From Paracyclopina nana (taxonomy: Eukaryota > Arthropoda > Copepoda > Cyclopoida > Cyclopettidae), in the NCBI GenBank assembly GCA_019096065.1, contig JAGUCH010000001.1:1860001-1924000 (forward strand): a stretch of 64,000 nt of DNA. Direction: 5' to 3'. This document shows, piece after piece, positions 3,183 through 47,780 of the stretch; within the stretch, counting starts at the first letter, position 1, and each line of letters starts with the position of its first letter. A program made the translations under genes and the position numbers. The notes beneath the pieces were generated by a model, which worked only from the letters and a program-made list of their open reading frames with translations, was not told the DNA's origin and did no database searches.

Positions 3183-3506
3183 GTCCAAAGACCCTCCGTG
3201 GTCCAAAGACCCTCCGTGGTCCAAAGACCCTCCGTGGTCCAAAGACCCTCCGTGGTCCAAAGACCCTCCGTGGTCCAAAGACCCTCCGTGGTCCAAAGAC
3301 CCTCCGTGGTCCAAAGACCCTCCGTGGTCCAAAGACCCTCCGTGGTCCAAAGACCCTCCGTGGTCCAAAGACCCTCCGTGGTCCAAAGACCCTCCGTGGT
3401 CCAAAGACCCTCCGTGGTCCAAAGACCCTCCGTGGTCCAAAGACCCTCCGTGGTCCAAAGACCCTCCGTGGTCCAAAGACCCTCCGTGGTCCAAAGACCC
3501 TCCGTG
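3183..3506. repeat. 18-bp tandem array, 18 identical units
   Basis: The unit GTCCAAAGACCCTCCGTG is repeated 18 times with no differences that I can see. Because the period is a multiple of three and the unit has no stop codon in most frames, several overlapping open frames cross it on both strands. These are artefacts of the repeat and not genes. The identity of the units implies recent expansion. Degraded relatives of the unit lie about 500 bp upstream (around 2620-2700), so the motif is older than the present array. Confidence 0.97.
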
Positions 3507-3594
3507 GTCCAAAGCAAAAATTAGAACGGTCCAAAGCAAAAATTAGAACGGTCCAAAGCAAAAATTAGAACGGTCTAAAGCAAAAATTAGAACG
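3507..3594. repeat. 22-bp tandem array, 4 units
   Basis: Four units of GTCCAAAGCAAAAATTAGAACG directly abut the 18-bp array. The first 8 bases (GTCCAAAG) are shared with the 18-bp unit, so the two arrays look like alternative expansions from a common seed. The last unit has one substitution (GTCTAAAG). Confidence 0.95.
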
Positions 3595-3599
3595 GTCCC

Positions 3600-30500: not shown

Positions 30501-31839
30501 ATTTCTGATGCTGCAGCAAAGCCTCTTCTGCACACTGGGCAAAATTTTTCACCTTGCAATATGATGGACTTCCTTTGGATTATCTCCACAGCTCAATGCT
30601 GCTTACATAACTAATAAAGACTCAATGCTTTCATCATTTACACTCAAGGCTTTTTTATGACTTTATTGGCTATACTTAAGCCCTGAATATCATCTATAAT
30701 ACGCAGGTAAACAGGCCCTTTTACAAGCTTTTTGGTGCCTTGAAAATTATTCTAAAAGCCTTTGTCGTATTTGGTTGTTATTCGAGAGGGGAGATGGAAA
30801 AAGAGGCTTAATTGGGTTAAGCTTTCTTTTCGCCAATTTAGCTCAGGAGCAAACAAGAGCTTGTTAAAAATGCGTGCTAACAAGCTGCATTAGTATGACT
30901 ATGTTTATTGCTGCAGAATCTTATCAGCTTACACATTAGTATCCTGCCCGAAAAAAAAAACTGATTTCATGAACAAAAGCTCGAACATGAAATTGATCCG
31001 CATTTACTTTTTGTAGTGCAACGTGTGAAATATGATGCTGGCGTTATTTAAGGCAAAAAGTAGTAGTAGTAGTACTTTTATGATTTACTGGCAATGCCGA
31101 GAATGTTATTCTTTCGTCTCTCCCACCAATTCTGAGATTATTGGTCTGCTGGGAGGATGAGCACCAGATCACAGCTTGCTGAACGAGTGTCTACCCACCA
31201 TTTTCCATAGGCAACTCTTTCCATGCCCAAATCGATATAAACTATGCCATGAAGGCTCTCGTGAGCAAATCCTGGCAAATCATGGGCTTGGGCCAAGCTC
31301 CGAACCAGCAAGCTGTGTTGAGTCTTCCAGAAGGAGGAGGAGGAGGTCAGAGTGGCATTTTATTAGGTGAAGAGCTGTGATCTGTCAGAGGGGTCTGATG
31401 CACACCATCAGGACTATTCATCTATCGAATGTGCATACCCCCTAAAATCATTACTCTGATTGCATTTGCCCCCATCCATGAATATCTGCTCGGATCTGCC
31501 TGATATCTACCAATAAAAGCCTGAAATGGGCTCATTTTGGAGTTTTATGGATGGGCTGTAAATTTCGCGAGGGCCCATTAATTAGCAGGTAATATACAAA
31601 GTGATGAAAAGGGGGCAGAATGATGTATTGGTGCAGTAAAAATACACATGAGCTGGGCCATTGAAGAGCTCTGATCATGTTTGTTCAGAGGGGAGCATTG
31701 GGATCAATATTCAAGTGGCTTCCTCCACCCAGAAAATAAGCAAGGTTTTCTTACATTTTCCAGCCCATTTTCTACTATATTGCCAATAAAGTACCATCCA
31801 ATGTAATCATATATGAGAAAATTCACTTTTTCCTTGCAG
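21516..31839. other. Long noncoding stretch upstream of the sestrin exons
   Basis: I searched this stretch for the missing 5' sestrin exons, expecting the conserved segment that ends just before AVARHSC, and did not find them. It contains a (CTG)n run at 25090-25110 and clusters of CACAGTGGG/CACACTGGG words at 26437-26770 and 27108-27177. Two short segments look somewhat coding (27745-27926 and 31211-31364) but have no recognised family. Much of it may be a sestrin intron. Confidence 0.45.
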
Positions 31840-32010
31840 GCTGTGGCCAGGCATTCCTGCACCGAACTGATGAACGTCCACGAGGCTGAATTGAAGTCTG
31901 CAATGGTCAACAACCAGGTCATCACCATGAAGGGCAAAATCAAGCGGTTGGACAGCATCAACAAGCTCCTCGCCCATCGGCCATGGGAGATCAAGAAGCA
32001 TCACATCAAG
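31840..32010 (+). CDS. Sesn: Sestrin, exon a (first exon found)
   Basis: Sestrins bind GATOR2 and restrain mTORC1 in the cytosol and on lysosomes when leucine is low or under stress; the N-terminal domain has an alkylhydroperoxidase-like fold. This 57-codon exon follows TTTTTCCTTGCAG and ends at a GTACGA donor, phase 0 at both ends. It encodes the conserved block starting AVARHSC and ending NKLLAHRPWEIKKHHIK, which corresponds to the start of the helical core after human Sestrin2 residue ~120. The catalytic Cys (TGC at 31858-31860) and His (CAC at 31879-31881) are kept. The position of human Tyr127 is Glu (GAA at 31864-31866). The N-terminal ~120 residues are not found upstream. Gene identity is certain from the block pattern across all five exons. 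Confidence 0.95.
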
Positions 32011-32481
32011 GTACGAGCACCATCAAATGACGGATCACCTCATAAACCTCGCGTTGATGATCTCTGGGTCAAAATACTGCATTTATCAGCTTCTTTTTTC
32101 TTCATTTTGCTTGATAGAACTGCTGTTTTACTTTTAGGCCAAATTTGAAAAAAGTTTGTAGAAAGTGGCTTGCATTTGCTGTTTCTTCCTGGTATTTGGG
32201 ACTGATGGTTGACTTGATGATTATAGGGCCTGAATCAGCATATTAATCGAATTTCTTTTGGCACTTGAAAATTCTTTGAATTTATAGTATGAGAAAATGA
32301 ACACAAGCTCAGGGTGGGGATGGAGAGGCTCCCTTGCAGCAGCGCGTTGCTCATTTTAGTCGTAATAGATAAATTCCTGGATGTTTGTTGCTCGGGTTGA
32401 ATGGACAAAAGTTGCGACAGATCAATCATGCCAATTGAAATCATGGAATTCTGTGGAGCTCAGTGATATGGCCTAGATAAT

Positions 32482-32649
32482 GGCTTAGTCTTTCGCAAGT
32501 TTTGCATAGTCACGCTATTTAAATAGCTCATAGCATAAAATGTATTTAAATAGCCTCTAGATGTATTTAAATAGCTGCTATTTAAATACGTTTTATGTTA
32601 TGAGCTATTTAAATAGCGTGACTATGCAAAACTTGCGAAAGACTAAGCC
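32482..32649. mobile_element. Foldback MITE in a sestrin intron (168 bp)
   Basis: A near-perfect palindrome with ends GGCTTAGTCTTTCGCAAG and its complement, flanked by AAT on both sides (32479-32481 and 32650-32652). The first nine bases match family A termini, but the interior differs and consists of repeated CTATTTAAATAG words. It lies in the 1.19-kb intron between exons a and b and does not touch the splice sites. High arm identity suggests a recent insertion. Confidence 0.88.
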
Positions 32650-33202
32650 AATGTATAATAGCTCCTATTCAGAACCACCAACATGCTCTGCGAAAATATC
32701 CATGCATAATATCCAAATGTTTAAACCCAGGCTCAACTTTGATAAATGGTTAAATAATTAGAAAAGTGGAATATAGGCAACATTATCATAGCAAAACCTT
32801 ACCCTCTACCGACATTTTGAGAAACTACTTGGGAGTTGAGTTCAAAATCAAGTATTGTTTTGATGAGTCGAGCCACTTTTATGAAGGCGAATAATTACTA
32901 CAAATGGCTACTTTTATTTTACTTATGCTTAGCATCAGGACTCTAACATCTTGATATTACGTTTCTAAAGATTTAAAATCATTCTTTTTTAGCATCATGA
33001 AGGAAAGCTTTACAAAGTTTGATTGGTCTAGTTTACTTGGGTCTTTATTTCGAACTACTACCCGAGTCGCAAAAACTCGGAAACTCAGTTTTTTTCTGTA
33101 GCAGTGTCAGCTGAAAATCCCAGATGTTGCCAATAAAGGCCGCTTGGATCGCCCTGCATCAGCGTTATTGTTATGATTCTAATGTGAATTAATATTTTGC
33201 AG

Positions 33203-33676
33203 GAATTGCTAAAGGGGGAAAACGCCGAGGACAAGTGGTCACTCAATGAGCTGGTCATCGCCATGATATTTTTGTGCCACTTCCATGCTCTGTCCTCGTT
33301 TGTCCTCGGCTGCGGCCTCATTAACGAGCCCACAGCAGAATCTCCCCCGCCTTCGGCCTCGGTCATCCTCACAGGGAATCACGAGACGGACGAAAAGGTC
33401 ACGAATATCCTGCGGAAAATGGAGCACTTGATGAGCATCAACGAGGAGCTCGAGCTGTCAGAAGTGGTCAAGCATTTCGAAAATGCCGTCAAAGGCCAAG
33501 AAGAGGCTGTGCACCAGCACCTCAAGTCGAGGTCGAGATCCTCCACGCCGGCCTCGGAAAAGGACGAGGAGATCAAGTATGTCGACCCCACCAAGTACAC
33601 CTCCGATTTGGACTTTCAGTACGAGGACTTTGTGAAGCGGAGCAACCCCGAGGACTCGCCCACTTTCCGCGAAGCC
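33203..33676 (+). CDS. Sesn: Sestrin, exon b
   Basis: A 158-codon exon between AATATTTTGCAG and a GTAAGT donor, phase 0 to 0. It continues HIK into ELLKGEN, then the conserved WSLNELV...FVLGCG helix pair of the N-terminal domain. It then runs through a long charged, probably disordered linker with Ser/Arg-rich and Lys/Glu stretches (about in-window residues 120-190). The exon ends in the conserved FQYEDFVKR...PTFREA that leads into the C-terminal domain. The linker is the region that varies most between sestrins. Composition is clearly higher in GC than the surrounding introns. Confidence 0.96.
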
Positions 33677-34073
33677 GTAAGTGTGGCACAAAAGTGCAAA
33701 CGAGTGGCGCTACTTGTGCCTTCAAAATTATTCGATTTTCCTCCCATGGAAGCTGAGAGACAATCAGCCTAATTTGCTCCTTCCAAATGATTAGTAGATG
33801 GCTAAAAGAGGAAGAAAGATGATGTTTCTCCCCTCCTTTTGGGTGAATTTCCAGCAAGTTTTCTCCTCTCTGCCATCATGGAAGTGAAAGGCAGAAAATG
33901 AGAAAAAATGGGAAGACACGACTAAGGAGGAGGGAAAGCGAAAGCAATTAGGAAGAAGTTACTGTTTTGACACTTTTTACTTTGCTACAACATAGAATAT
34001 TTTTCACTTAATTTCCCCCTTTTTTTGTTCTTTATAAGATATTGGAAAAAACCGCAATTTTTACTTAAATGTT

Positions 34074-34299
34074 GCCCTAAAAATGTCCGCACAGTTTCCA
34101 GCGCCAGTTAGATATCAGGCAAAGCGAGCCTACCGTTTTAGGGCAACTATTGCCAATTTTGAGCCCATTTGCACAGAAAATTTGCTGCCCTAAAAATGTC
34201 CCCTCAGTTTCCGGAGCCTGTTAGATTTCAGGCAAACCGAGCCTACATTTTTAGGGCAAATGTTGCCAATTTCGAGCCCATTTGCACCGATAATTGCTA
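34074..34299. repeat. 113-bp tandem duplication in a sestrin intron
   Basis: Two adjacent units, each beginning GCCCTAAAAATGTCC and containing CAGGCAAA..CGAGCCTAC and GAGCCCATTTGCAC. They are offset by 113 bp with moderate divergence. Each unit carries TAGGGCAA near its middle, complementary to TTGCCCTA at its start, so each unit could fold. It lies directly upstream of exon c. Confidence 0.85.
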
Positions 34300-34327
34300 G
34301 GCAGTCTGTACATTGATTTTCCAACAG

Positions 34328-34566
34328 GAATTCGGATGGATCGATTATGCCTACAACGTGGTGAACAATTTCGGCGGCGAAGACATTTCGGACTTGTTGG
34401 ACAGCAAATTCCAACTCATCACTGACCTCACTTACCGCAACATTGGCAAATTCGAGGCCGTGGACACGAAGCTGTTCCGAATGGCCGTGCAACGCTACGC
34501 CCAATGTCTTTTCGGCATCAGACACGACGACTACAACTACAGCCAAATCAACATTTTGCTTCCAAG
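34328..34566 (+). CDS. Sesn: Sestrin, exon c
   Basis: Begins after TTTTCCAACAG with EFGWIDYAYNVVNNF and ends with LLPR at a GTATGC donor, phase 0 in and 2 out. It holds the first half of the C-terminal domain, which in human Sestrin2 carries the leucine pocket and the GATOR2-contact Asp pair. FGIRHDDYNY keeps both Asp residues (human 406/407). LTYRN keeps Thr374 and Tyr375 but has Asn (34439-34441) for Thr377. VDTKLFR keeps Thr386 and Arg390 but has Phe (34475-34477) for Leu389. Numbering is by recall of the human protein. Confidence 0.97.
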
Positions 34567-35020
34567 GTATGCAACAGTAAAATATGAAACAATTTCGCGC
34601 GGCGCAGCCGAGGAAAAATGGGCAATTACACATGCAATATTGTAGGGCTTTTTTTCAATGTCCGCGTGTGTAACACATATCACGCAATGTGTATCATTTG
34701 GAATTGCTGTTCGTCTTCTTCTTCGACCTCATTTCACTCATGGGCCAATGTCATGAGCAATTTGCCGATTTTTTCCATTTTACAGCCTGTGCTGAGCCAA
34801 TTGGTTTTCCTTGCCAAAATGTGGGTGTGGGTGTGCGGAGAAAAGCCCTTTTGTGTGTCTAGATAATGAGGAATCTTTTTTGCATTTTGCACTAATCGAT
34901 TACGACGTGAAATTTCATGCCATCGCATGACTGGTGAAACAAAGGCAGCAAAGGCCGAAAAGCTCTTTTGCAAAAGGGAGAATAATGGACTGATTAATTT
35001 TGCCCTCTTTTTTTGCATAG

Positions 35021-35120
35021 GCGGCTGAAAACCTACATCAAGACACTCTGCTGTTTCCCTGAAAGATGCACAGTGGAGGAATACGAGGCAATTATGGCGG
35101 ATTTTCGCAACTCTGAAAAG
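35021..35120 (+). CDS. Sesn: Sestrin, exon d
   Basis: Begins after TTTTTTTGCATAG and ends at a GTAAAG donor, phase 2 in and 0 out. It encodes RLKTYIKTLCCFPE through FRNSEK, the conserved tail helix of the family. The SEK glutamate (35115-35117), equal to human Glu451 which holds the leucine amine, is present. The position of human Trp444, the lid over the ligand, is Met (ATG, 35094-35096). Confidence 0.96.
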
Positions 35121-36687
35121 GTAAAGAGCGTCTTTTTCGGCATCTTCCACAGCGGGGGCCTAATGGCTTTCGCATGTGTGTAAAGTTGAGAGATGGATGT
35201 TCACGCGGCTTTTTTCCCTCTTCTGCTGCTGGACCCCCTGCGTGGACACAGCGCTACCAGAGGAATATTTTTTGCATCTTTATTATCTGCCTAGTTAGGC
35301 TCGCTCAAATACACTTGCATGTCCCGTTCATCTGTGTGGAGAAATTATGCGAAAAGTCTTCTTTTTTTACTGGACCAGAAAAGTCTGCCTTTTCTACGTT
35401 TTTGGCCTCAATATTTTTTTTATTTGGGTAAAATGTAGCGTAATTGATCAAGATTGAGATTGGTTGCCAAAACTTGTTTGCCTCAAAATTGATCTGATTT
35501 CATCTTAAAAGCTGCTGAATCTATACCCTTTTCATGTACAGAGCTTTCATGATGAAAAGTCATTTTTCATCTTAAAATATAGAGCGATTCTTTTGCAAAT
35601 TACTGATGGAGGCGTTTTCATTGGAAATATGGCTATTTTTGGTCCAACTAAAATGGCTTTCTTGAACCTCCTAGTTTTTTTGGATATCTGCTCAGTACAC
35701 AAGTGTAATTTGAGCATTTTAGAGTTTATTTTGAGTTCTCACTTTATAAATTATCATAAGTTTTCTTAAGGTGACCAGGGCTTTCGTGAACAGGGCATTA
35801 GTGAAAGAGATGAATACTTTTCTCCTATGCCTAAACGTGTTTTCCTCGCAGTTTGGGGCGTACATGAACTGGGCAGCAACTCATATGCACAGTAACGTGG
35901 TCAAAATTGCGCGGCCGACATCATTTTCAAAGATTGGCCTGTAAAAGTCACTGCTTTGACCTCTAATTGGAAATGCATGAGCGATTTCACGAGTGTGCGC
36001 AATAGCACACACAAAGTTGCATGTACGCAGTAATGGCAGGATCGTATTAATCGCCAATGATTGCATCTGTTTTGTCTCCTGATTCATTCGCAAGTGTTCG
36101 CATTGTTTTATCAGATTCTGACGAGATTTCCAAGAAGCGAAACAAATATGAAAAATAGCATATTACATAAGTTTTTGGCCAAATACGAGCGTTTGCATTT
36201 TATTTACCATTTTTTAATTTTGCGCAGTTGATTTTCGCACTTGTTATGCATTCCTCTTATAAAACAGACTGAAAGGACAGTTGGTATTTTGGCCACTTTT
36301 TCCAATCCTAGCATATTTTACTAAACAGAATCTGGTGTGTTGAGGCAAGAGTATCGTTTTTCGATGCAAAAGGCCAATTGGAATAGCTAATAATGGTATT
36401 TACAGAATAGGGTCCAAATTGGAAAGCCCTCTACTTGTTTGCTAAGGAGTCAGTCGCGAAGGTAAAATGTCGTTATATATGGAAAGTCCACGTGACTTTT
36501 GCTTGTCCGGCCTCAGAATGGCCAATCAGAGATTCGCCAGCTTTCTCGTGTGATGCCCAGCTGAATAGGCCTAGGCCAATAGGAAAGCACTCGAAGCTCC
36601 TCCTTTTGCACTTTGTGATCTATGTAAAGTACCATGGTACTGCAGCCACAGCCGCCAAGCTTTCACTGTTTTCCTTTTTTATTACAG

Positions 36688-36774: not shown

Positions 36775-37135
36775 ATGCTACTACTCACTCTCCATGAAAA
36801 AATGTATGTCAGAAGAATCAATGCAGCAGCAGCAAGATCTGTGTATGTATATAAAAAAATCATGTGTTCCCCATAATTGAATATGGCTCTTCCATGTTGA
36901 AACAACTGAAATTTCCAGACTTGAAAATCAATGCACAGGGAAACAAGGCTTTTCCCACTCTTCAATGCATATAACATACCTATTATATATATATATAGTG
37001 TTCCTCCTCATTAATTTTAGCTGTACTTTTACTACACTTGCATTTTTTGCCAAAAATGCAGTAGACAACGATTGTAATTATTGTTACTGTGCCTCCATGA
37101 CTTTGATGAGGAATAAAACTGGGTAACTCAATTAT
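36775..37135 (+). other. Sesn: Sestrin 3' untranslated region with poly(A) signal
   Basis: AATAAA at 37112-37117 lies 338 bases after the stop codon and is followed by T- and GT-rich sequence (GTGTTTCATTTTTTATT), as expected downstream of a cleavage site. No other exon of the gene is seen after it. Confidence 0.65.
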
Positions 37136-37139
37136 GAAT

Positions 37140-38165
37140 GTGTTTCATTTTTTATTCCAAAAAGGATGTTTTTTTTACCCTTCAAATGGCAACATCATGT
37201 ATGTACATAATTTACAAGAGGGGCTGAAATCAATCAGTTGACACAAAAGCAGATAGATATAGAGATTTTGGCCACCAACACCATCATGTGTGCATATTTC
37301 AACTTCCAAATGGGAAATGTTTCTTCGCTCGGTGGGGGGAAGGAAAAGTGTTACTTAGCTGCTGCAGTCAAAAGTGGCTTTTTTCATAAATAAAAAAGTC
37401 CTGGGAGTGAATTGATAATGGTCAATACATAGCAAGTCCATGATTTCACTACAGTATGTGCTCTCAACAATTGTGCTCCTTCTCTCAGCTCTGTTGATAA
37501 TTTTTTCTTACGTTTTCTCGCCCTTTTTTTTGCTCGAGAAAATTGGCTCTTTTTGCAATTCTGGCTCGGTTTTTCTGACATAGTTTGTATACTCGATTCA
37601 TTCTCACTCACGCTCGCACACACTTTTCAATTTTTTGCTTTTTTTCAAAATCATTTCCAATTTTTTGTACCATCCAATAGTGCCCTGAAGCCATTATGGG
37701 GGTCTTCACCTATCACACAATTTTTGAACATGTTTTACAGTAGTTATAATGTGATTCTACGCGGTCAGCACATAGCCCCTATGCAATTATGATTTATTTT
37801 GTGGCCTACACAAATGTGGCTGAGAAATTCGCAAACTCCTCATGAAAGACTTGTGGGCATGGTTTTTCGTTTGAAAGACATTCGGGCTTATTTTCGATCC
37901 AGCATCACATCTAAATTTCGACCTAAACATGTATATTATGAGTTTTGTTGTTGTGCACTAACATCAATGATGATCTATAAAAGTTGTAGTAAGTAAGAGA
38001 GGCTTACTAAAAGCAGAATATTGTGTGTGTGCTCTAAACGGTGATTTCTTTTGCGTTATAGTATCAGTTGATGCAGGTGGTGGGAATTTTCGAGGGGATG
38101 CATTGCAGTTTAGTAATTTTAAAGACGACGGATGCGGAGGGCTGAAGATGAAATAGTATAGTTTA
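37140..38165. other. Noncoding stretch downstream of sestrin
   Basis: AT-rich sequence with no recognised gene. Two isolated GAAAGAC words (about 37841 and 37875) foreshadow the array that follows. Confidence 0.45.
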
Positions 38166-38169
38166 CAAA

Positions 38170-39490
38170 GAGAAAGACCTTAATTAAGAATGAGTTGATT
38201 CCTGAAAGACTCGAATCAGGTTAATGCCTTCGCAGGAACAATCATTGCTTCTTTTTGTCAAAAGGGATTGATGAAAGACTGTTGTGTGAGGTGTGAGATT
38301 TTCGAATTGTTTAATTCTTCTCCATTTGATATACTTCATGATTCAGAGCTTTGAGATAAGTTGTTGTTCCAAAAAAGAAAACAAATTACTTCGTGTCCTT
38401 TCGGCAGCAAAACGACGTTCTTTTCCTCAGTTGGTGTGGTTTCAATTTTGTGGAGCTTCTTGTGCAAATCTCACTTGTCTCATTCCTGGGTCAACATGAA
38501 AGACTTGATTCCAGCAATGAATGGGTGAAAGACTTGCTAATATTTTTTCCAAGGACTTGAAAGACTTTGTTGGATGAAAACAAAATAGTTAAACAACTTA
38601 ACAAGACATGTGGCTTCTCACATTGGGCTGTGGTGGTACAATAATCATCAAGAAAGACTTCTTCTTCTTGATCATCAATTTTGAGAAAGACTCCAATTCC
38701 TCTTCTCAGCTGAAAAACCTCTTCTTGGCTTCTTTATATACATCTCAGAAAGACTGGTTGTTGTTACAATGGAAAGACTTTTTCTCTCAAGAAAGACTTG
38801 GTTCCCAGCAGAAAGACTTTTTGATGAAAGACTTGATAAGAATCCCCCCTGATGTCAATTGAGGGATCTCTTCTTGATAATGAAAGACTTCTTTGATCTT
38901 CAGTAGAAAGACTTTTGCTCAATGAAAGACTTTGATCTTCTGTAGAAAGACTTCTTGATCCAAAAGTGAAAGACTTGGTCAAAATAAACAAAATGAAAGA
39001 CTGTTTTCTTCTGAAAGACTCTTTCCATCCTGAAAGACTTCTTGAATTTGATGAAAGACTTCTCCAATTTGATGAAAGACTTCTTCAATTTGATGAAAGA
39101 CAATTTCAATTTGATGATAAACTTCTTCAATTTGATGATAGACTTCTTCAATTTGATGATAGACTTCTTCAATTTGATGAAAGACATTTTCAATTAGATG
39201 AAAGACTTGATCATTAGGTGAAAGACTTGATCTGCTTGATCACTCACCTCACCTTCTTCTAGGTGGTAAAGACAATTGTTCTTGACTCTTGGCTGTAATT
39301 GGCAAATCATGAACTGAAGGGGAGGGGTGTCAAACTAGATTATTTTTAAAGTGATGAAAGACTTCTTCTGTACATAAATTCTGACAACAAATTGGGAAAG
39401 ACAATTTGAGTAGGGCTTGGTGTCTTTTCTTGTCAGAAGACTCCACAAGATTGACATGATGAAAGACAAGTTTTTGTTGATGTTCTTTTT
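38170..39490 (+). repeat. GAAAGAC array: core kept, spacers diverged
   Basis: By hand count about 30 exact GAAAGAC words, mostly GAAAGACTT, occur in 1.3 kb, all on the + strand. Between 39032 and 39200 the spacing is exactly 21 bp (unit near ATGAAAGACTTCTTCAATTTG, with three units changed to GATAAAC or GATAGAC). From 38882 to 39032 the spacing wanders from 18 to 27 bp, and the sequence between cores is largely unrelated. Further left the words are sparser. The variable spacing breaks any reading frame, although the regular 21-bp part is open as a heptad (DERLLQF). It looks like a decaying 21-bp satellite in which the core outlasts its spacers. Function is unknown. Confidence 0.85.
39032..39217 (+). 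repeat. Regular 21-bp minisatellite within the array
   Basis: About nine units at exact 21-bp steps (39032, 39053, 39074, 39095, 39116, 39137, 39158, 39179, 39200). The consensus GAAAGACTTCTTCAATTTGAT is clear. This is the best preserved part of the larger cluster and shows its original period. Confidence 0.92.
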
Positions 39491-42400
39491 GATTTTGCTA
39501 CCAAATGCAGGAATCCCTATTTTTTCTTACACATTTTGAACTGTTTTCAGAGAAAAGCAGGAAAGAGGGAAAGCAAGTGATGCAATGCCTAATTTTTCCT
39601 AATTTGGCACTTTTTGACACAACATAGATATTTCTTACAGTTTGTGAAAGACTTTTGTGGGCTTTGTTCTTCAATTCACACTCATTCATACTCAATTTAG
39701 ACAGGGCCGAAAGAAAGGTTTTCTGTATATCACTAGAAACCACTCATACTCTTCTTCAATTGTAGCTTTAGCTGGGCTTTTTTACGTGAGTCATTGGGAG
39801 GGCTGTAAAACTGCGTAGAGCCCGGTAAAGCTGCTATACCTGGTGATTTACTTTATAACTTGTGGGGCTACACGTTGACCGAACAATTCCTGATGTTTCA
39901 GAGCAACAAAAACCTGAGAGCTGCACAATTGGTCAATGATACTATGGTAGTGAAACTGTGGACTTGCAATATGTACATGAAGAGGAAATGAAAAGCTAGA
40001 AGAAACTTCGGATGAAAAGACTGGGAAAATATGGAAGCTTTTCATATATCACTTGCGGGCTTGATGAGAGCATTAACTTAATTTTGATTTGACTGATGCT
40101 GAAAAAAGTTCAAACATCAGCTGAAGAAAAAACGAAACAAAAAAATTATAATCAGATACAAACTGATCACAGTAGCTGAGAAGAGTTTTCCTTTTGCTTT
40201 CTTTTTGGGAGTTGGTGACCAGCTACAATTTCAATTTTGCAAGAGAGAATATCAAACTAAAAAATTGGCTGTTGGTCCATATGGTCTTACTGAGAAATTT
40301 CGCAAAATTTGTGTTGGTGGTTGTGATGCAGATCTTCAGTTCTCTCCAGGAAATGTCAGTGTTTGTCCATGTCTTCTTGGGGGGAAAATTTGTGTCGATT
40401 TGTTGGCCACCAAAGCAATAAAGAGGATGATGATGATAAAAAATCACAGTTTTTCAAGGGGTTGTTGCTCGAGGACTCCTCCACCTCCACCAAAAAATCA
40501 CCACCAGCATCTTACAAGTGATGAACTGACAAGTATAATTGTGTGTAGACTTTGACAATGTGATCGTTTAAGAGGACCGGAGCGTCATCTGCGAACGGAG
40601 AAATGACAATTAACAAAAGGTTTAACAAAAAATGACGGCTACTAGCTATGACTTGTTCAAGAAGAAGAATCCTACTACTTCTTGAGAGATCAGAAATTCT
40701 GCACGGTCACCCCTTTATCAAAAAGGTGTACTAATAGTCATGCCAGCCACTCTGGGGTAAACACCCCTCGCACCTCCCATTGGTCAGCTGGGAAAATTGT
40801 CAACAATTTGTGACAACTGCAAGTGGCCAATTGAGAGGTGGAGAAGGTGATTTTAGCGGAAAATCGCGACGAGTGGTCAGCTAGCCCCGAGGTGGACGTA
40901 ATATGACTTTGATTAAAGCCAAATCCCCTATGTACTTTTCTCTACTCGGAATGACCAGCAGAAATCATTGAGAACTGACAAAAGAGCCACTACTAGAAAG
41001 TTATAAAAAATCCTTCTTACCGGAGCTTCTCAAAAAATTCGGCTTCCCTTGTCTTGTCAAGTGAGAAAAAAGGACTCGGTTGAATAGTGAGGTGTCTGGA
41101 AAGAAAAAAGGATTTAACAATTAACACACGAGTCTACGCAGCTTTCCCGTAAAAAATGCATTTATCATTCTTTTTTTTTGGTTCTACGCAGTGACAGTAA
41201 TTTTGGTCAATTTTAGCCTTCTGCAATATTTGTTTTTCGTTTTTGCAGCTGAAACCACGAGACTGAAATCTCAGTCAGATTCTAATTCGGATGAGAGCTG
41301 CCAGTTTTTTCGCCGTTTCTCACTTATTACGCGCACGAATTGGGCACTTCAACGTCAACACTAAACGCTATGATTTTTCGCGCTCATTTCAAAGTGAAAT
41401 CGAAATTCGAATCGAGTTTTTTTTCGGAGATAAAAAAAAACAACTTTTCGGGCTAAAAAAGCCACGCGTTTTTCTGCAAAGACTCTGCTACTCAAGCGAA
41501 ATGTTGGCAAAGTTTTGTTGTTTTTCCACTAGGTTTTTGCCGCAAGCAAACATTGGAACGTTTGGCGGAAAGAGCGCTGAAACTCTCGGCTTTTTCTCTG
41601 AGAGGAAGAGAAGAAGCAGAGAGCAATTTTCCGCTCTTTCTCTCAAACATTGAATAACAGGCTAGATAATTAAAAAGCCCTTCAAAATTCACTGCTGATC
41701 CGTCAAAGTTTCTGGCTTTTTCTATTTACCTCAAATTCTCGGATCTGTCAGGTGATTGTCAAGATGGCGGAGTTGTTGTTATGTCGTCATGGCTTTTGGA
41801 GCCTCAAAAATGCCAGCGCGGAGCTTGACATTTGGCAACGCGGCGAGAAGAGGAGGAGGGCTAAATTCGGCCTGTTTTTCCAGGATGGTTTTGAGATCGA
41901 AAAGGGGCCTGTTCCAAGCTGTCATCCTCCGTTGTGAAATTTTCCTGATGTTCATGGAGGCTGAATTTTCCTGATGACATGCTCAACTGTTCTCCACTCC
42001 AGCCCAGAAAATCCACTTTCCTCCTCTTCTCTTCCATACTTTGTTTTTCATGGCATTATTCAAAGTGGCTGAAACCAGCAGTGGATTTTCCCCATGGCTG
42101 GAGTGGAACAGTTTTTCAGTCTTGTGTCTCTCTTGGTTGGTGGTAAGCACGAAACTGAAGAGACCGACAGCGACAAGTGGAGAACTGAGAGGAGCAAGGG
42201 CGCGTTTTTCCCGGCTAACGGCGATTGGCGGCGCATCGGCCGGTTCAGCGTTGCAACCGGCTTTGGATTTGGCAAGTGCCAACTCAGCCACGTGCTCGCG
42301 CCCGGATGAACGCGGATCAAGCGTCACTGTTGCCCCCCCATGACACACTGCACAGACGCACTTCCACTTTTTGTATGCATTCGCTCTTATGCATCCGCAG

Positions 42401-43363
42401 AATGTCCCTTACTATCAACATCAAATAAGATGAAAGCAAAGCGTACCCATTTTAGGTAATAGAAATTAATTTTAGCAGTGCAATGTACCGCATTTTCATT
42501 ATAAGAGCTAAATTGAATTCCTACTCTAATAAGAAGTTAAAAATACATTCAAGTTGCTAGATAATACAGAAATGTATTTTTGGGTTACTTGCGAGCAAAG
42601 TTGTAGCAGCAATTATCTGAATACTGCTTAGTTAGACTAATTAGAAGTAAAAAACGCTTATTAAGTTATTTGCCAGATTATACCGAGAGATATAGTGGAA
42701 AATGTACTATTTCTAGCCCCAACAAGGTTTTATTGCCAAAAAGATAAGCCATGACACCACAGCCTCATACTTGACACATGTTCCGGCTAATGATGCAATT
42801 TATCAAAAAATACCTTTTTGGACCCTATTGGAATTTTTTTTAGTGAATTTCACATGCTTGTGGAATTTGATACTACTACAAGCTTAGCTGTTCACATATA
42901 CTATATATGCCTAAGCCCCAACTCCGAACGTCGGATTTTGACCTTAGAGCACTGTGGACTGGATATCAGATTTTAGAGGAGCATAGTATGGGTAAAAAGT
43001 TGAGAGACCACACACTAGTAAACTAATTCCGTGACTGGTAGCTTTCTCAACATAGTCCAGGGATTACTGTTTACCTAGCTTCTTGGACAATACCCTCGGG
43101 CCCTATTGAGCTACTCTCTCGTATTTGCAAATAAGCTGAGCAAAACCTCCCCCGATTACTGAATGGATTAATAAGCCATTCAGTGACCCCTACAAGCTCA
43201 GGGAAAAATAAATGGATGGTCCAGTTTGAAAGCAAGCCATCCATTCTGCACATTCTTCAAGTTTAGCACAATGTTCACACACTGGGAGATCACGAAGCTC
43301 CAAGAATTTCCACAGTGTGCTGTAGACCCATAGGGCTTTGACATTGATATGGTCAGCCATTTT
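39491..43363. other. Noncoding stretch with a CpG-richer segment
   Basis: No gene is recognised. An open segment at 40205-40555 looks mildly coding but has no known family. From about 41280 to 42345 the sequence is noticeably richer in CpG than its surroundings, includes CAAGATGGCGG (41759-41769, a YY1/Kozak-like word), and could be a promoter with a first exon. I cannot assign a transcript. Confidence 0.4.
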
Positions 43364-43762: not shown

Positions 43763-45949
43763 ATGGGTCGCAAATCTCCTGAGAAGGTCTCCAAAACAGT
43801 ACAGCTGGATCTCCTCGTCGAACTTGGTAAAAAATACCATGTATATTCGGAACGAAACTCAACGAAGCTCAACCTAATCTGGAAGCAAATTGCGATTGAG
43901 TTCAACCATGAAACAGGCCTCGGTTTTGATGGGAAGAAGCTGTCAAAGATGTACAGCAATCGGTACTTATATTAAAGAGTTTTAAGTTCAAATGATTAAT
44001 TTTAATATGAGTAGGAAATCTTGGTTGAGAAAAAAGCGGACGGATCAAAAAGCTGACGAGAAAAAAACAGGAGGCGGGCCAAGCGAGGCAAATCCACTCT
44101 CGATTCATGAATTAAAACAGCTTTGTGATATGGGTGAGGAGAATCTGAGCTTTGAGACTCGTTGGGACACTGATGCCATCCTTGCTAAGCCGCAGCCAGG
44201 ACCAAGCAGATCGCCAAGTAAACACAAAAAGCAGCGGAATCTTGCAAATGTGACATCAAATAAGGTAATTTATTGGACTTCAGAAAAATTAGATCAAATT
44301 TCTAGTACAAGCTAAAGTTATTTGAACAAAAAAATTATTGTTGAAAATTAATTTTCGGAGAGTTTAATAAAATTAGATCTAATTGCATAAAGAAAATTGT
44401 TTTGTAAATTATTTCCCTAGAAAAGGCAACATACATTTTTAAAACTTTTCTATTTGTTGTCAAAGTAAGCCTTAAAAGTTATGGTTCGTTCTTCTTTTGA
44501 AAAACATAAACAAACAATTCTACAGCTTAGCTGTGTTTTTCAGAGCCTGAACGATGAAGAGTGCAATGCTGCCCTCAATGACATGGATTTTGAGGACAAA
44601 AATGATGATCAAAGAATTGTGGCTGAGTCCGAAACCTCAATTACCGTGAACCGAGAAAAGCAGCAAGTTGAGGAACGGCATCAAGGTAAGCTGGCTGCAG
44701 AAAATGCTCATAAGCTCCCTTTACGCGGAAAATGTTCCAAAAAATGCGGAAAATGCTCAGAAGCTTTCTTCTCTAAGAGAATTCTCAGAATTCAGAAAGA
44801 AAGTGCACACAACCTCTATTTTCAATTCACATCATTTAGATTAGAAAATGGTCTACTTTTTATTTAATAATTAGTACGTTTCAAGGGAGGCTGGTAAGAG
44901 GCCCGTTTTTTTCGCCAAACAAGCTTGCTTTTCCAAGCCGCTCCCTAATAAACACGAAAATGGCGATTTTGAGGCATTAGAATGATATATTTGGAAAAAG
45001 TTCATAAAATAATATTTGTAGAACTCGGGCTGGGATTTCCAAAACTGTCTTTGATTTTGCTCTAAGCCCAAGGACAATGGAGAAAATTGCAACTTTCTTA
45101 TACGCTGCATTTTGTGAAACTTTTTGGGCTCAAATTAAAGGGCACGCTGACCCGATTCCAAATATGTGCTTAAATTGTAGAAAAGTTACGTAACGGCAAA
45201 GTTACGGCCGTTTTAGTCCGTATGTATATGTGGTACTTTTTTCGCTCCGTGCTCGCACTCGCGAGTCATCCCCTTTTTGGGATCCCATTTATCATTTAAT
45301 GTTTTCTTTCAGAAATTGTTGCAACTGTTCAAGACATCAGTAGTGTGGCTGAATTCGTTGATGGCCCTGAAATAGCCTCGAATGCTAACGATGGCGATTA
45401 CGAGCAACAAGCTAGAGAGGAGCAAGCCAAGGAGAGGAGGTACAGCAAATCCAAACGTGTAAGGCTCCAGCCAGCAGCCGAGTCAATTCGGGAGTATCTA
45501 GAAGTCCGGAGTATGCGCGAGGAGGTCAGGAGCAATGAGTCCCATGACTTGCATATGGCAGCTATGGAGGCACTACTCAAAGAGGCGCAGCATAAAGAGG
45601 AACTGGCACGTAAAAAGCTTGAAATGGAGCAAGAGCTTCATGCCTTAAGAATGGATCATGAAAAGAAGATGATGGCAATTCAACTATCTGTTGCCAAAGC
45701 TAAAGCTGAGCAGGAGATTGAGGCCATATCTCGTGGAGACCAAGAATCTTGTCTTCAGCGTTGCAGAAGCAGCTCTGCTTCCATAAGGCGACTGAACTCC
45801 ATATTGGAACAAGGTATTTTTTATAGCTTAATGGTTTATTAAAGTAATTTAATGTTTGATTTTTTCTAGGTTCACAATATGGAGAGAATGCTGGGGCCTC
45901 CAGCTCTATTGAGGCTAATGGAGCTTCCTTGAGAAGCAATATTTATTAA
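43763..45949 (+). CDS. Harbinger Myb/SANT-like DNA-binding protein, five exons
   Basis: Exons by splice sites and phase: 43763-43962, 44015-44264, 44544-44685, 45313-45813 and 45870-45949; 390 residues. The start ATGGGTCGC (MGRKSPEK) opens a helical domain of about 70 residues (QLDLLVELGKKY, IWKQIAIEFN, KKLSKMYSNR then KSWLRKKR), the Myb/SANT-like trihelix type carried by PIF/Harbinger elements. Acidic and proline/serine-rich stretches follow. A long charged coiled coil fills exon 4 (alternating Glu/Lys with Leu and Met). In this superfamily the Myb-like partner binds subterminal DNA and helps localise the transposase; that role is inferred here. All junctions use GT/AG and join in phase. AATAAA follows at 45976-45981. 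Exact exon limits are by eye. Confidence 0.82.
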
Positions 45950-46431: not shown

Positions 46432-47642
46432 TTATTGGAACTGACGAGCAATAATTAGATCTCGGACAAACTTGTTGCCATCAGTCATAGCAGGTACATG
46501 ATCATTTTGAGATTCTCTCATCATTTGCTCAAACCTTTCTACAAGCTTTTTATCATGCTTTGGCAATTCTGCTGGCTCATTCATGTCAAGGGCTAAATTA
46601 TGTAGCACAAAACTGGCAAATATGGTTGCTTGGCTAGTTTCTTGCTTGTCTTTTCTTAGCCCATAAAGCATGGCAGGAAAACGTTTTTTCCACACACCAA
46701 ATGCATGTTCAACTTTTACTCGGACTTTCTTAAGAGCATCATTGAACTTCTTCTGTGCATCAGTCTCAACTCGGTCATCCCTGATTGGGACAAGCAAAGT
46801 CTTCTGATTTTGGAATCTGAAATGGCCAACTTGTTTCACTAAATCAAAGTATTGAAAAGAATTTTTGCATACCCTTCATCACCTATTATAAACATAGGGT
46901 ATTTTGGATTGAATTGTGATTCAAGCAGGGCTTTAAGATGACTCTCATTGTAGATTCGGCTATCATGGGCTGATCCTGGATTTTTGCAGACTGCCCAACG
47001 AAATTTCAAATTGTCATCAACAACAGCACAACTGTTCCAAGCAAAATAGCCTTTTCTTGAGTAAAACTTGTTCACTAGAACTTTGTCCACGAATTTGGGC
47101 TTTGATATCTTAATCAAAGAGCCATCAATCACACCTATTATGCCAGGAATGCCACAATCTTCAAAAAATCTGCTAGCAATAAGTTTCTGCTCTTCTTGAT
47201 CCGGAAACTTGACATGATTGTTCATTTCATTAGCAATGATTTTGGCAGTATCATTAACAATTCGACCAACTGTAGCCACACTTAGTTGTATAGTGAAATG
47301 AGTAGAAACACATCTCAAGAAAGAATTTGACCTCAGGAAGTTCAGAAAGGTTGACAGCACCAGTAAAGCAGGAACTGGAGCATCTTTTTTCTTTCTTTTG
47401 GTGAGCTTGGGCCCAAAAAGTCTCAAAACATGTAGAAATCCTTCTTTTGAAAATCCATGGTGTGATTTAAACTCGCGATCATTGAAAAACTCGAGTGGAT
47501 TAGCTTGATCTCTCACAACTCTCCTTGGAACACTCACAGCCTCAGAATCTGCACTATCTTCTACAGTCGAAAGGTTCTCAATATTTTCAAGATCAATAAG
47601 AAAGCCAAGCTCCAAAGACATGATGATGAAGCTTATTTTCAA
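46432..47642 (-). CDS. Harbinger DDE transposase (HARBI1-like), two exons
   Basis: Exon 1 is 47642-46873 and exon 2 is 46816-46432, joined across a 56-bp intron (GTATGC...TTTCAG in coding sense). Joining restores IIGDEGF, the GDxG(Y/F) motif of the family, and gives 384 residues. A helix-turn-helix-like SVATVGRIV precedes the nuclease domain. Catalytic residues are visible: Asp173 (IGVIDGSLI), Asp227 (NPGSAHDSRIY) and Glu293 (KVEHAFGVWKKRF). The enzyme would cut and rejoin the element's ends with TWA-like targets. A start at 47621 (MSLELGFL) is an alternative, and a 5' noncoding or short coding exon nearer the terminus is not excluded. No disabling change is seen. Confidence 0.92.
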
Positions 47643-47780
47643 AAAACTACAGCTGTTGATGCTAACTTGTTTGGGGAACCAGTTAAGGAGGGTACCTGAA
47701 TTGATTAAGCAACCTAATAGCCTTGCTTACCTGAGTTGGGCAGGTACCTTAAAGTCGCTGCCTGACTTACCTTAATCTAG

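Follow-up and report, generated by a model that had tools for sequence, protein, structure and literature searches.

Between about 39.7 and 37.8 kb, the minus strand of the stretch of DNA analysed here (64,000 nucleotides of the Paracyclopina nana genome, referred to below as the window) probably specifies a noncoding RNA or an untranslated region that carries 33 canonical seed sites for the microRNA miR-71 and would serve as a natural sponge for it. The identity of the repeated word with the miR-71 seed, the adenosine bias around it, the sharp limits of the conserved core and the scarcity of near-miss copies agree with one another and thereby support the reading as a miR-71 sponge. Transcription of the array, binding of miR-71 and sponging are all predicted here from sequence, and we place the array, as a probable member, among the natural miRNA sponges rather than among the circular RNAs. 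The coordinates of its parts and of the neighbouring features are collected in Table 1.

Table 1. Features of the putative miR-71 sponge locus and its surroundings (positions are those of the window)
Feature	Coordinates	Strand	Remark
miR-71 seed-site array, n=33 (GTCTTTC as read on the minus strand, extended in 23 cases to the 8-mer GTCTTTCA)	37844..39652	-	probable body of the predicted sponge transcript
Dispersed part with 22 exact cores, unevenly spaced; no similarity detectable among the spacers	37801..39030	-	
21-bp minisatellite part, 9.5 units; cores exact in 7/10, changed in 3 (GATAAAC once, GATAGAC twice)	39031..39228	-	
Sparse right-hand sites at 39356, 39396, 39461 and 39646	39229..39652	-	5′-terminal sites of the minus-strand array
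Sestrin gene, as located by its best Pfam PA26 matches in three frames	31798..35126	+	context only
AATAAA, candidate polyadenylation signal, about 45 bp past the last seed site	37793..37798	-	1 of 7 such words on this strand, 34.8-41.5 kb

Read on the plus strand, the array consists of the word GAAAGAC, of which 33 exact copies stand at 37844-39652, all in that orientation; the count on the minus strand of 37801-39700 is 0, and the density in the rest of the window would lead one to expect 0.09 per 1900 bp. Over the whole window and both strands the word occurs 37 times, as against 8.83 times in 100 shuffles (sd 3.23, largest 20), and it is the top-clustered 7-mer of the window, with its 33 copies in 1900 bp being followed by AAAGACT (27) and TGAAAGA (23), and the count falls when the word is moved by a single base. 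Start-to-start gaps between neighbouring copies run from 15 to 299 bp with a median of 28 bp, the two widest being 225 and 299 bp, and 21 of the 32 are no longer than 35 nt (the class of 13-35 bp). Tandem structure is limited to the minisatellite and to three short patches of 2.5-3.1 copies, and some neighbouring units are alike; the array does not show the recognisable tandem units over most of its length that would mark an ordinary minisatellite. A preliminary description of this DNA had reported about 30 copies of GAAAGAC on the plus strand in 38170..39490, with about 0.1 expected by chance, and a 21-bp minisatellite at the right, all of which hold up (our recount for that interval is 30); its limits for the array proved too short, the real one reaching about 330 bp further left and about 160 bp further right.

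The consensus of miR-71-5p, as given in PMC10458147, is UGAAAGACAUGGGUAGUGAGAUG, with GAAAGAC as its nucleotides 2-8, and the same source predicts a miR-71 8-mer site with an A opposite nucleotide 1. Judged by its letters, the reverse complement of GAAAGAC, GUCUUUC(A), is thus a canonical miR-71 seed site when read on the minus strand. There are 35 six-mer seed matches on that strand, of which 33 extend to position 8 (7mer-m8) and 23 are 8-mers, none being only a 7mer-A1; the plus strand of the array has one 6-mer match to the miR-71 seed and no 7-mer. Many canonical sites for one miRNA are thereby found on one strand, far above chance, and miR-71 alone has more than one site in 37701-39800 among the 36 miRNA entries (35 distinct) used in this site scan.

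Outside the minisatellite, where the sites number 27 if its last unit at 39220 is counted as outside and strictly 26, an A stands opposite miRNA position 1 in 17/27 sites (p 0.002; strict set 16/26, p 0.004) and at site position 9 in 23/27 (p 6e-8; strict set 22/26, p 2e-7). The adenosine at site position 9 has a particular role in targeting, adenosines flanking seed sites are reportedly the subject of Lewis et al. 2005, and the bias opposite miRNA position 1 is typical of target sites. An A at position 1 strengthens sites in flies, and a fly target model picked position 9 in just 2% of runs (PMC6172730). Duplex energies of the array sites average -14.49, against -14.31 with shuffled flanks, and give no sign of 3′ supplementary pairing beyond these flank shuffles, so that the sites are essentially seed-only and lack extensive complementarity, the best pairing of any of them with miR-71 being 17/23 matched. 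That same miR-71 pairing is the best result of a scan of 36.4-41.6 kb with 34 miRNAs, which found no near-perfect site for a second miRNA, and the accessibility of the sites is average, no higher than that of other windows of the same RNA.

miR-71 is an ancient miRNA linked to ageing and stress, and its gene is present in the same genome, of which 91,952,342 bp in 10 contigs were searched. There is a single exact match to the 20-nt miR-71 query, at C1:16903171-16903190 on the minus strand, together with 15 other matches that have 3 mismatches each (the reversed-query control gives 3 matches). The C1 locus matches Rfam RF00832 with 67.5 bits (gathering score 50) and adjoins three mir-2-like hairpins, of which one exceeds the gathering score and the others, with 44.5 and 33.4 bits, fall short of it; by these sequence matches, the genome carries an intact mir-71 gene beside mir-2 hairpins. 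Eight 20-mers about 313 bp apart at C5:4700280-4702492, each with 3 differences from miR-71, are probably chance matches within one satellite. TTAGG telomeric repeats stand at three of the six contig ends examined (C1 right, C2 left and C7 right); together with the cluster of mir-71 and mir-2 genes they point to an arthropod.

The preliminary description had also proposed that the core is kept while the spacers erode. Within this one genome, that claim stands for the sites outside the minisatellite, on the evidence of flank information, flank-only partners and near-miss cores, and equal rates of change in core and spacer, the outcome it had set against its own proposal, are not what is found there; inside the minisatellite the claim fails, as three of the ten units lack an exact core and the core is without visible protection, which indicates that young units are not individually protected. 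Across the 27 sites outside, full information resides in the seven core columns, with modest information at -1 (a T in 17/27) and at some of the positions +7 to +12, and values near zero elsewhere and beyond this span. When the best partner of each site is sought by its flanks only, the mean identity is 61%, with an exact core at the partner's centre for 3 of the 27; since the same procedure gives 57-62% (mean 59%) for 22 further stretches of the window, each sampled at 27 random positions, the spacers outside the minisatellite are without detectable common ancestry.

The cores behave otherwise. In 37801-39030, the 22 exact copies of GAAAGAC are accompanied by 2 one-mismatch copies, where shuffles predict 1.54, and in the entire array 33 exact copies are accompanied by 6 one-error copies, where the rest of the window leads one to expect 2.97. 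The ratio of exact to one-mismatch copies in 37801-39030 is 22/2 for GAAAGAC, 20/4 for AAAGACT, 13/12 for TGAAAGA and 14/10 for AAGACTT, and the block conserved in this interval is exactly the seed. The core-limit and near-miss tests rest on the same words and are not independent of each other, and units that have lost both their core and their spacer similarity are invisible, an ascertainment effect that the near-miss test answers in part, being blind to losses by several changes.

Flank information is 0.13 bits per column for GAAAGAC in 37701-39030 and 0.96 in its own minisatellite, and in four other arrays of the genome it is 1.43 (the 18-bp array of the window), 1.39 (C8), 1.50 (C4) and 0.98-1.22 bits (C5). 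A survey of the window and 13 other loci for 7-mers that reach 8 copies per 2 kb gives 109 words; three of them, each present 8-9 times, lie below the whole-array value of GAAAGAC. The closest case with more copies is AAGTCAA on C4, with 16 copies and 0.205 bits, and GCAGCAG, with 9 copies, has 0.058 bits. These comparison words decay, with 16 exact versus 63 one-error copies for AAGTCAA, 9 versus 66 for AGTCAAT and 13 versus 13 for GCAGCAG, that is, words with low flank similarity elsewhere have at least as many one-error as exact copies, unlike GAAAGAC. The C4 locus (positions 1-2025) is the fringe of an 18-bp array, with scattered AAGTCAA and eroded spacers, in which AAGTCAA decays too. The window itself holds, at 3183-3514, a perfect 18-bp minisatellite of 18.4 copies (100% match) and next, at 3506-3598, another with a 22-bp unit, the two being open in several frames.

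Close triple clusters, in which 5-35 bp separate each of three successive GAAAGAC cores from the next, number 20 in the whole genome, with 14 in the present array, 4 in the 18-bp minisatellite of C4 and 2 in a minisatellite of C5 (the reversed word gives 10 as a control), and no second such array is found among them. The segment 37000-40700 has two matches only in the genome (80% and 78%), both between its tandem part and a minisatellite on C8, whose unit contains GAAATAC and lacks GAAAGAC. Applied to the seed sites of miR-2 and miR-1, the triple pattern gives 62 and 173 matches, respectively; those listed have, by eye, the appearance of tandem satellites whose spacers recur.

As for the surroundings, the final matched stretch of the sestrin gene ends about 2.7 kb before the array and on the opposite strand (coordinates converted from matched residues), and within the span of this gene, at 34073-34295, lie two 113-bp tandem copies (87% matches). 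No Pfam domain is found on the plus strand of 40.0-49.0 kb or on the minus strand of 36.0-46.0 kb (E 0.001), and the window has no Rfam family at gathering scores and no tRNA gene. The lack of a minus-strand domain in that interval, the position of sestrin on the other strand and the placement of the AATAAA make a noncoding RNA the simplest putative host of the sites. Splice-like words are about as numerous on one strand as on the other; at 39250, within the array, stands a good 5′ splice-like word, none above the cutoff lies farther downstream on the minus strand (36901-42500 scanned), and this pattern leaves a spliced or circular exon unsupported. An inverted repeat of about 48 bp flanks the array (37429-37476 and 39923-39970), its score of 36 being marginal against 33 for the best of 120 control positions away from the locus, and a circular form of the predicted RNA is possible but unsupported. 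At 41750-42500, upstream of the array on the minus strand, the G+C content rises locally to about 50%, possibly as part of a promoter or exon. Farther on, two long open frames on the minus strand at 46432-47726 appear to resemble a DDE/Harbinger-type transposase, and another long open frame lies on the plus strand at 45300-45842.

Several other readings have to be weighed against that of a miR-71 sponge. A 21-bp unit might have expanded and then decayed neutrally, its match to a seed being coincidental, as could be expected in a genome rich in such arrays, and the 21-bp tandem with its similar adjacent units and its unprotected core is in keeping with this. Decay, however, should leave many one-mismatch cores, of which the dispersed part has hardly more than shuffles predict, and the best words of arrays that have decayed show 33 one-error copies to 31 exact ones (C4) and 12 to 23 (C5); the cores here remain exact though their spacers have become unrecognisable, and the prior that one 7-mer should match some conserved miRNA seed by chance on either strand is roughly 1% (arithmetic, with about 100 families assumed), so that we regard a neutral origin as unlikely. 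A cluster of sites for a protein that recognises GAAAGAC, either as a motif in a plus-strand RNA or in double-stranded DNA, would look identical insofar as its core would be kept and its spacers left free; an orientation shared by 33/33 copies is unusual for independent DNA sites, though duplication would produce the same, while the limits of the core and the adenosine biases suit a miRNA site and the matching miRNA is present in the genome, all of which makes such a homotypic cluster quite improbable.

The seed evidence as a whole fits equally well a minus-strand RNA that is a target of miR-71 without being its sponge, be it a strongly repressed 3′ UTR or noncoding RNA, or an RNA that stabilises miR-71, transports it or triggers its decay, and since mice that lack CDR1as have less miR-7 (PMC7390531), a "sponge" need not be an inhibitor. 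We nevertheless think this improbable: the minus strand at 36.0-46.0 kb is without a Pfam domain, 33 sites would seem far in excess of what repression needs, and target-directed decay calls for extensive 3′ pairing, which neither the best site nor the mean duplex energies provide.

If the array is a miR-71 sponge, the RNA from its minus strand would present the 33 sites to miR-71-loaded Argonaute, which would bind them via nucleotides 2-8 and would mostly be kept from slicing by the limited pairing beyond the seed. With many of the sites closely spaced, several Argonautes could fit and one RNA might hold much miR-71, whose action on other targets would thereby be relieved, buffered or localised. 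The sites probably spread by local duplication of the minisatellite type, after which selection would have held the seven letters of the seed constant, with a preference for adenosines at site positions 1 and 9, and the spacers would have drifted. The preliminary description offered two explanations, one being that a binding site or RNA motif is under selection and the other that the core was seeded repeatedly. The first, in the form of an RNA motif, has the better support, with the amendments that the motif lies on the opposite strand and is a miR-71 site, which had gone unrecognised; repeated seeding retains a part, as local duplication, seen in the 21-bp minisatellite and in a few adjacent units that resemble one another, probably contributed too. 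Whether an invertebrate has in this way independently evolved a CDR1as-like multi-site miR-71 sponge from a minisatellite, the tandem end being the birthplace of the sites and the dispersed part being older and selected, we consider evenly balanced. Few natural sponges are believed to have dozens of sites, and the array, if truly a sponge, would be a second independent one of this kind, in an invertebrate and for another ancient miRNA, which would suggest that sponges have evolved repeatedly; it would also illustrate a possible route, from expansion of a minisatellite to selection on the seed, and would offer a system in which removal of one locus tests the effect of a sponge on its miRNA.

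Among the matches listed from the open-licence literature there is neither a miR-71-5p sponge nor an invertebrate sponge with many sites. A river-prawn lncRNA has been proposed to bind miR-71-3p (PMC10458147), that is, the other strand from the one whose seed the array matches, and in Echinococcus granulosus miRanda predicts pairing of 17 lncRNAs with miR-71-5p (PMC7387405); for neither do the available parts of these sources describe a many-site array. Another known system is circRNA-ZNF91, a possible sponge with 24 miR-23 sites that derives from a zinc-finger gene, along with further site clusters predicted by a scan of the human genome (PMC6108476), which share with the present array the clustering of sites for one miRNA; unlike circRNA-ZNF91, the array lies in sequence without a Pfam domain in the intervals searched on either strand. 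Cyrano, with one near-perfect miRNA site (PMC7390531), and other single-site RNAs of target-directed decay resemble the predicted sponge in acting on one miRNA and differ from the array with its 33 seed-only sites. The nearest relative in kind is CDR1as/ciRS-7 of eutherian mammals, whose human locus is about 1.7 kb long (PMC6108476) and which has 73-74 seed-only miR-7 sites that are conserved against adjacent regions and bound without slicing (PMC7390531). The array differs from it in its miRNA, in having 33 sites, in belonging to an invertebrate, in the minisatellite visible at one end, in lacking support for a circle and in having no slicing site for a second miRNA among the 34 scanned (best 17/23). 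Both offer a single ancient miRNA dozens of sites that match it by the seed only and are kept relative to the neighbouring sequence, in the case of the array within one genome and outside the minisatellite.
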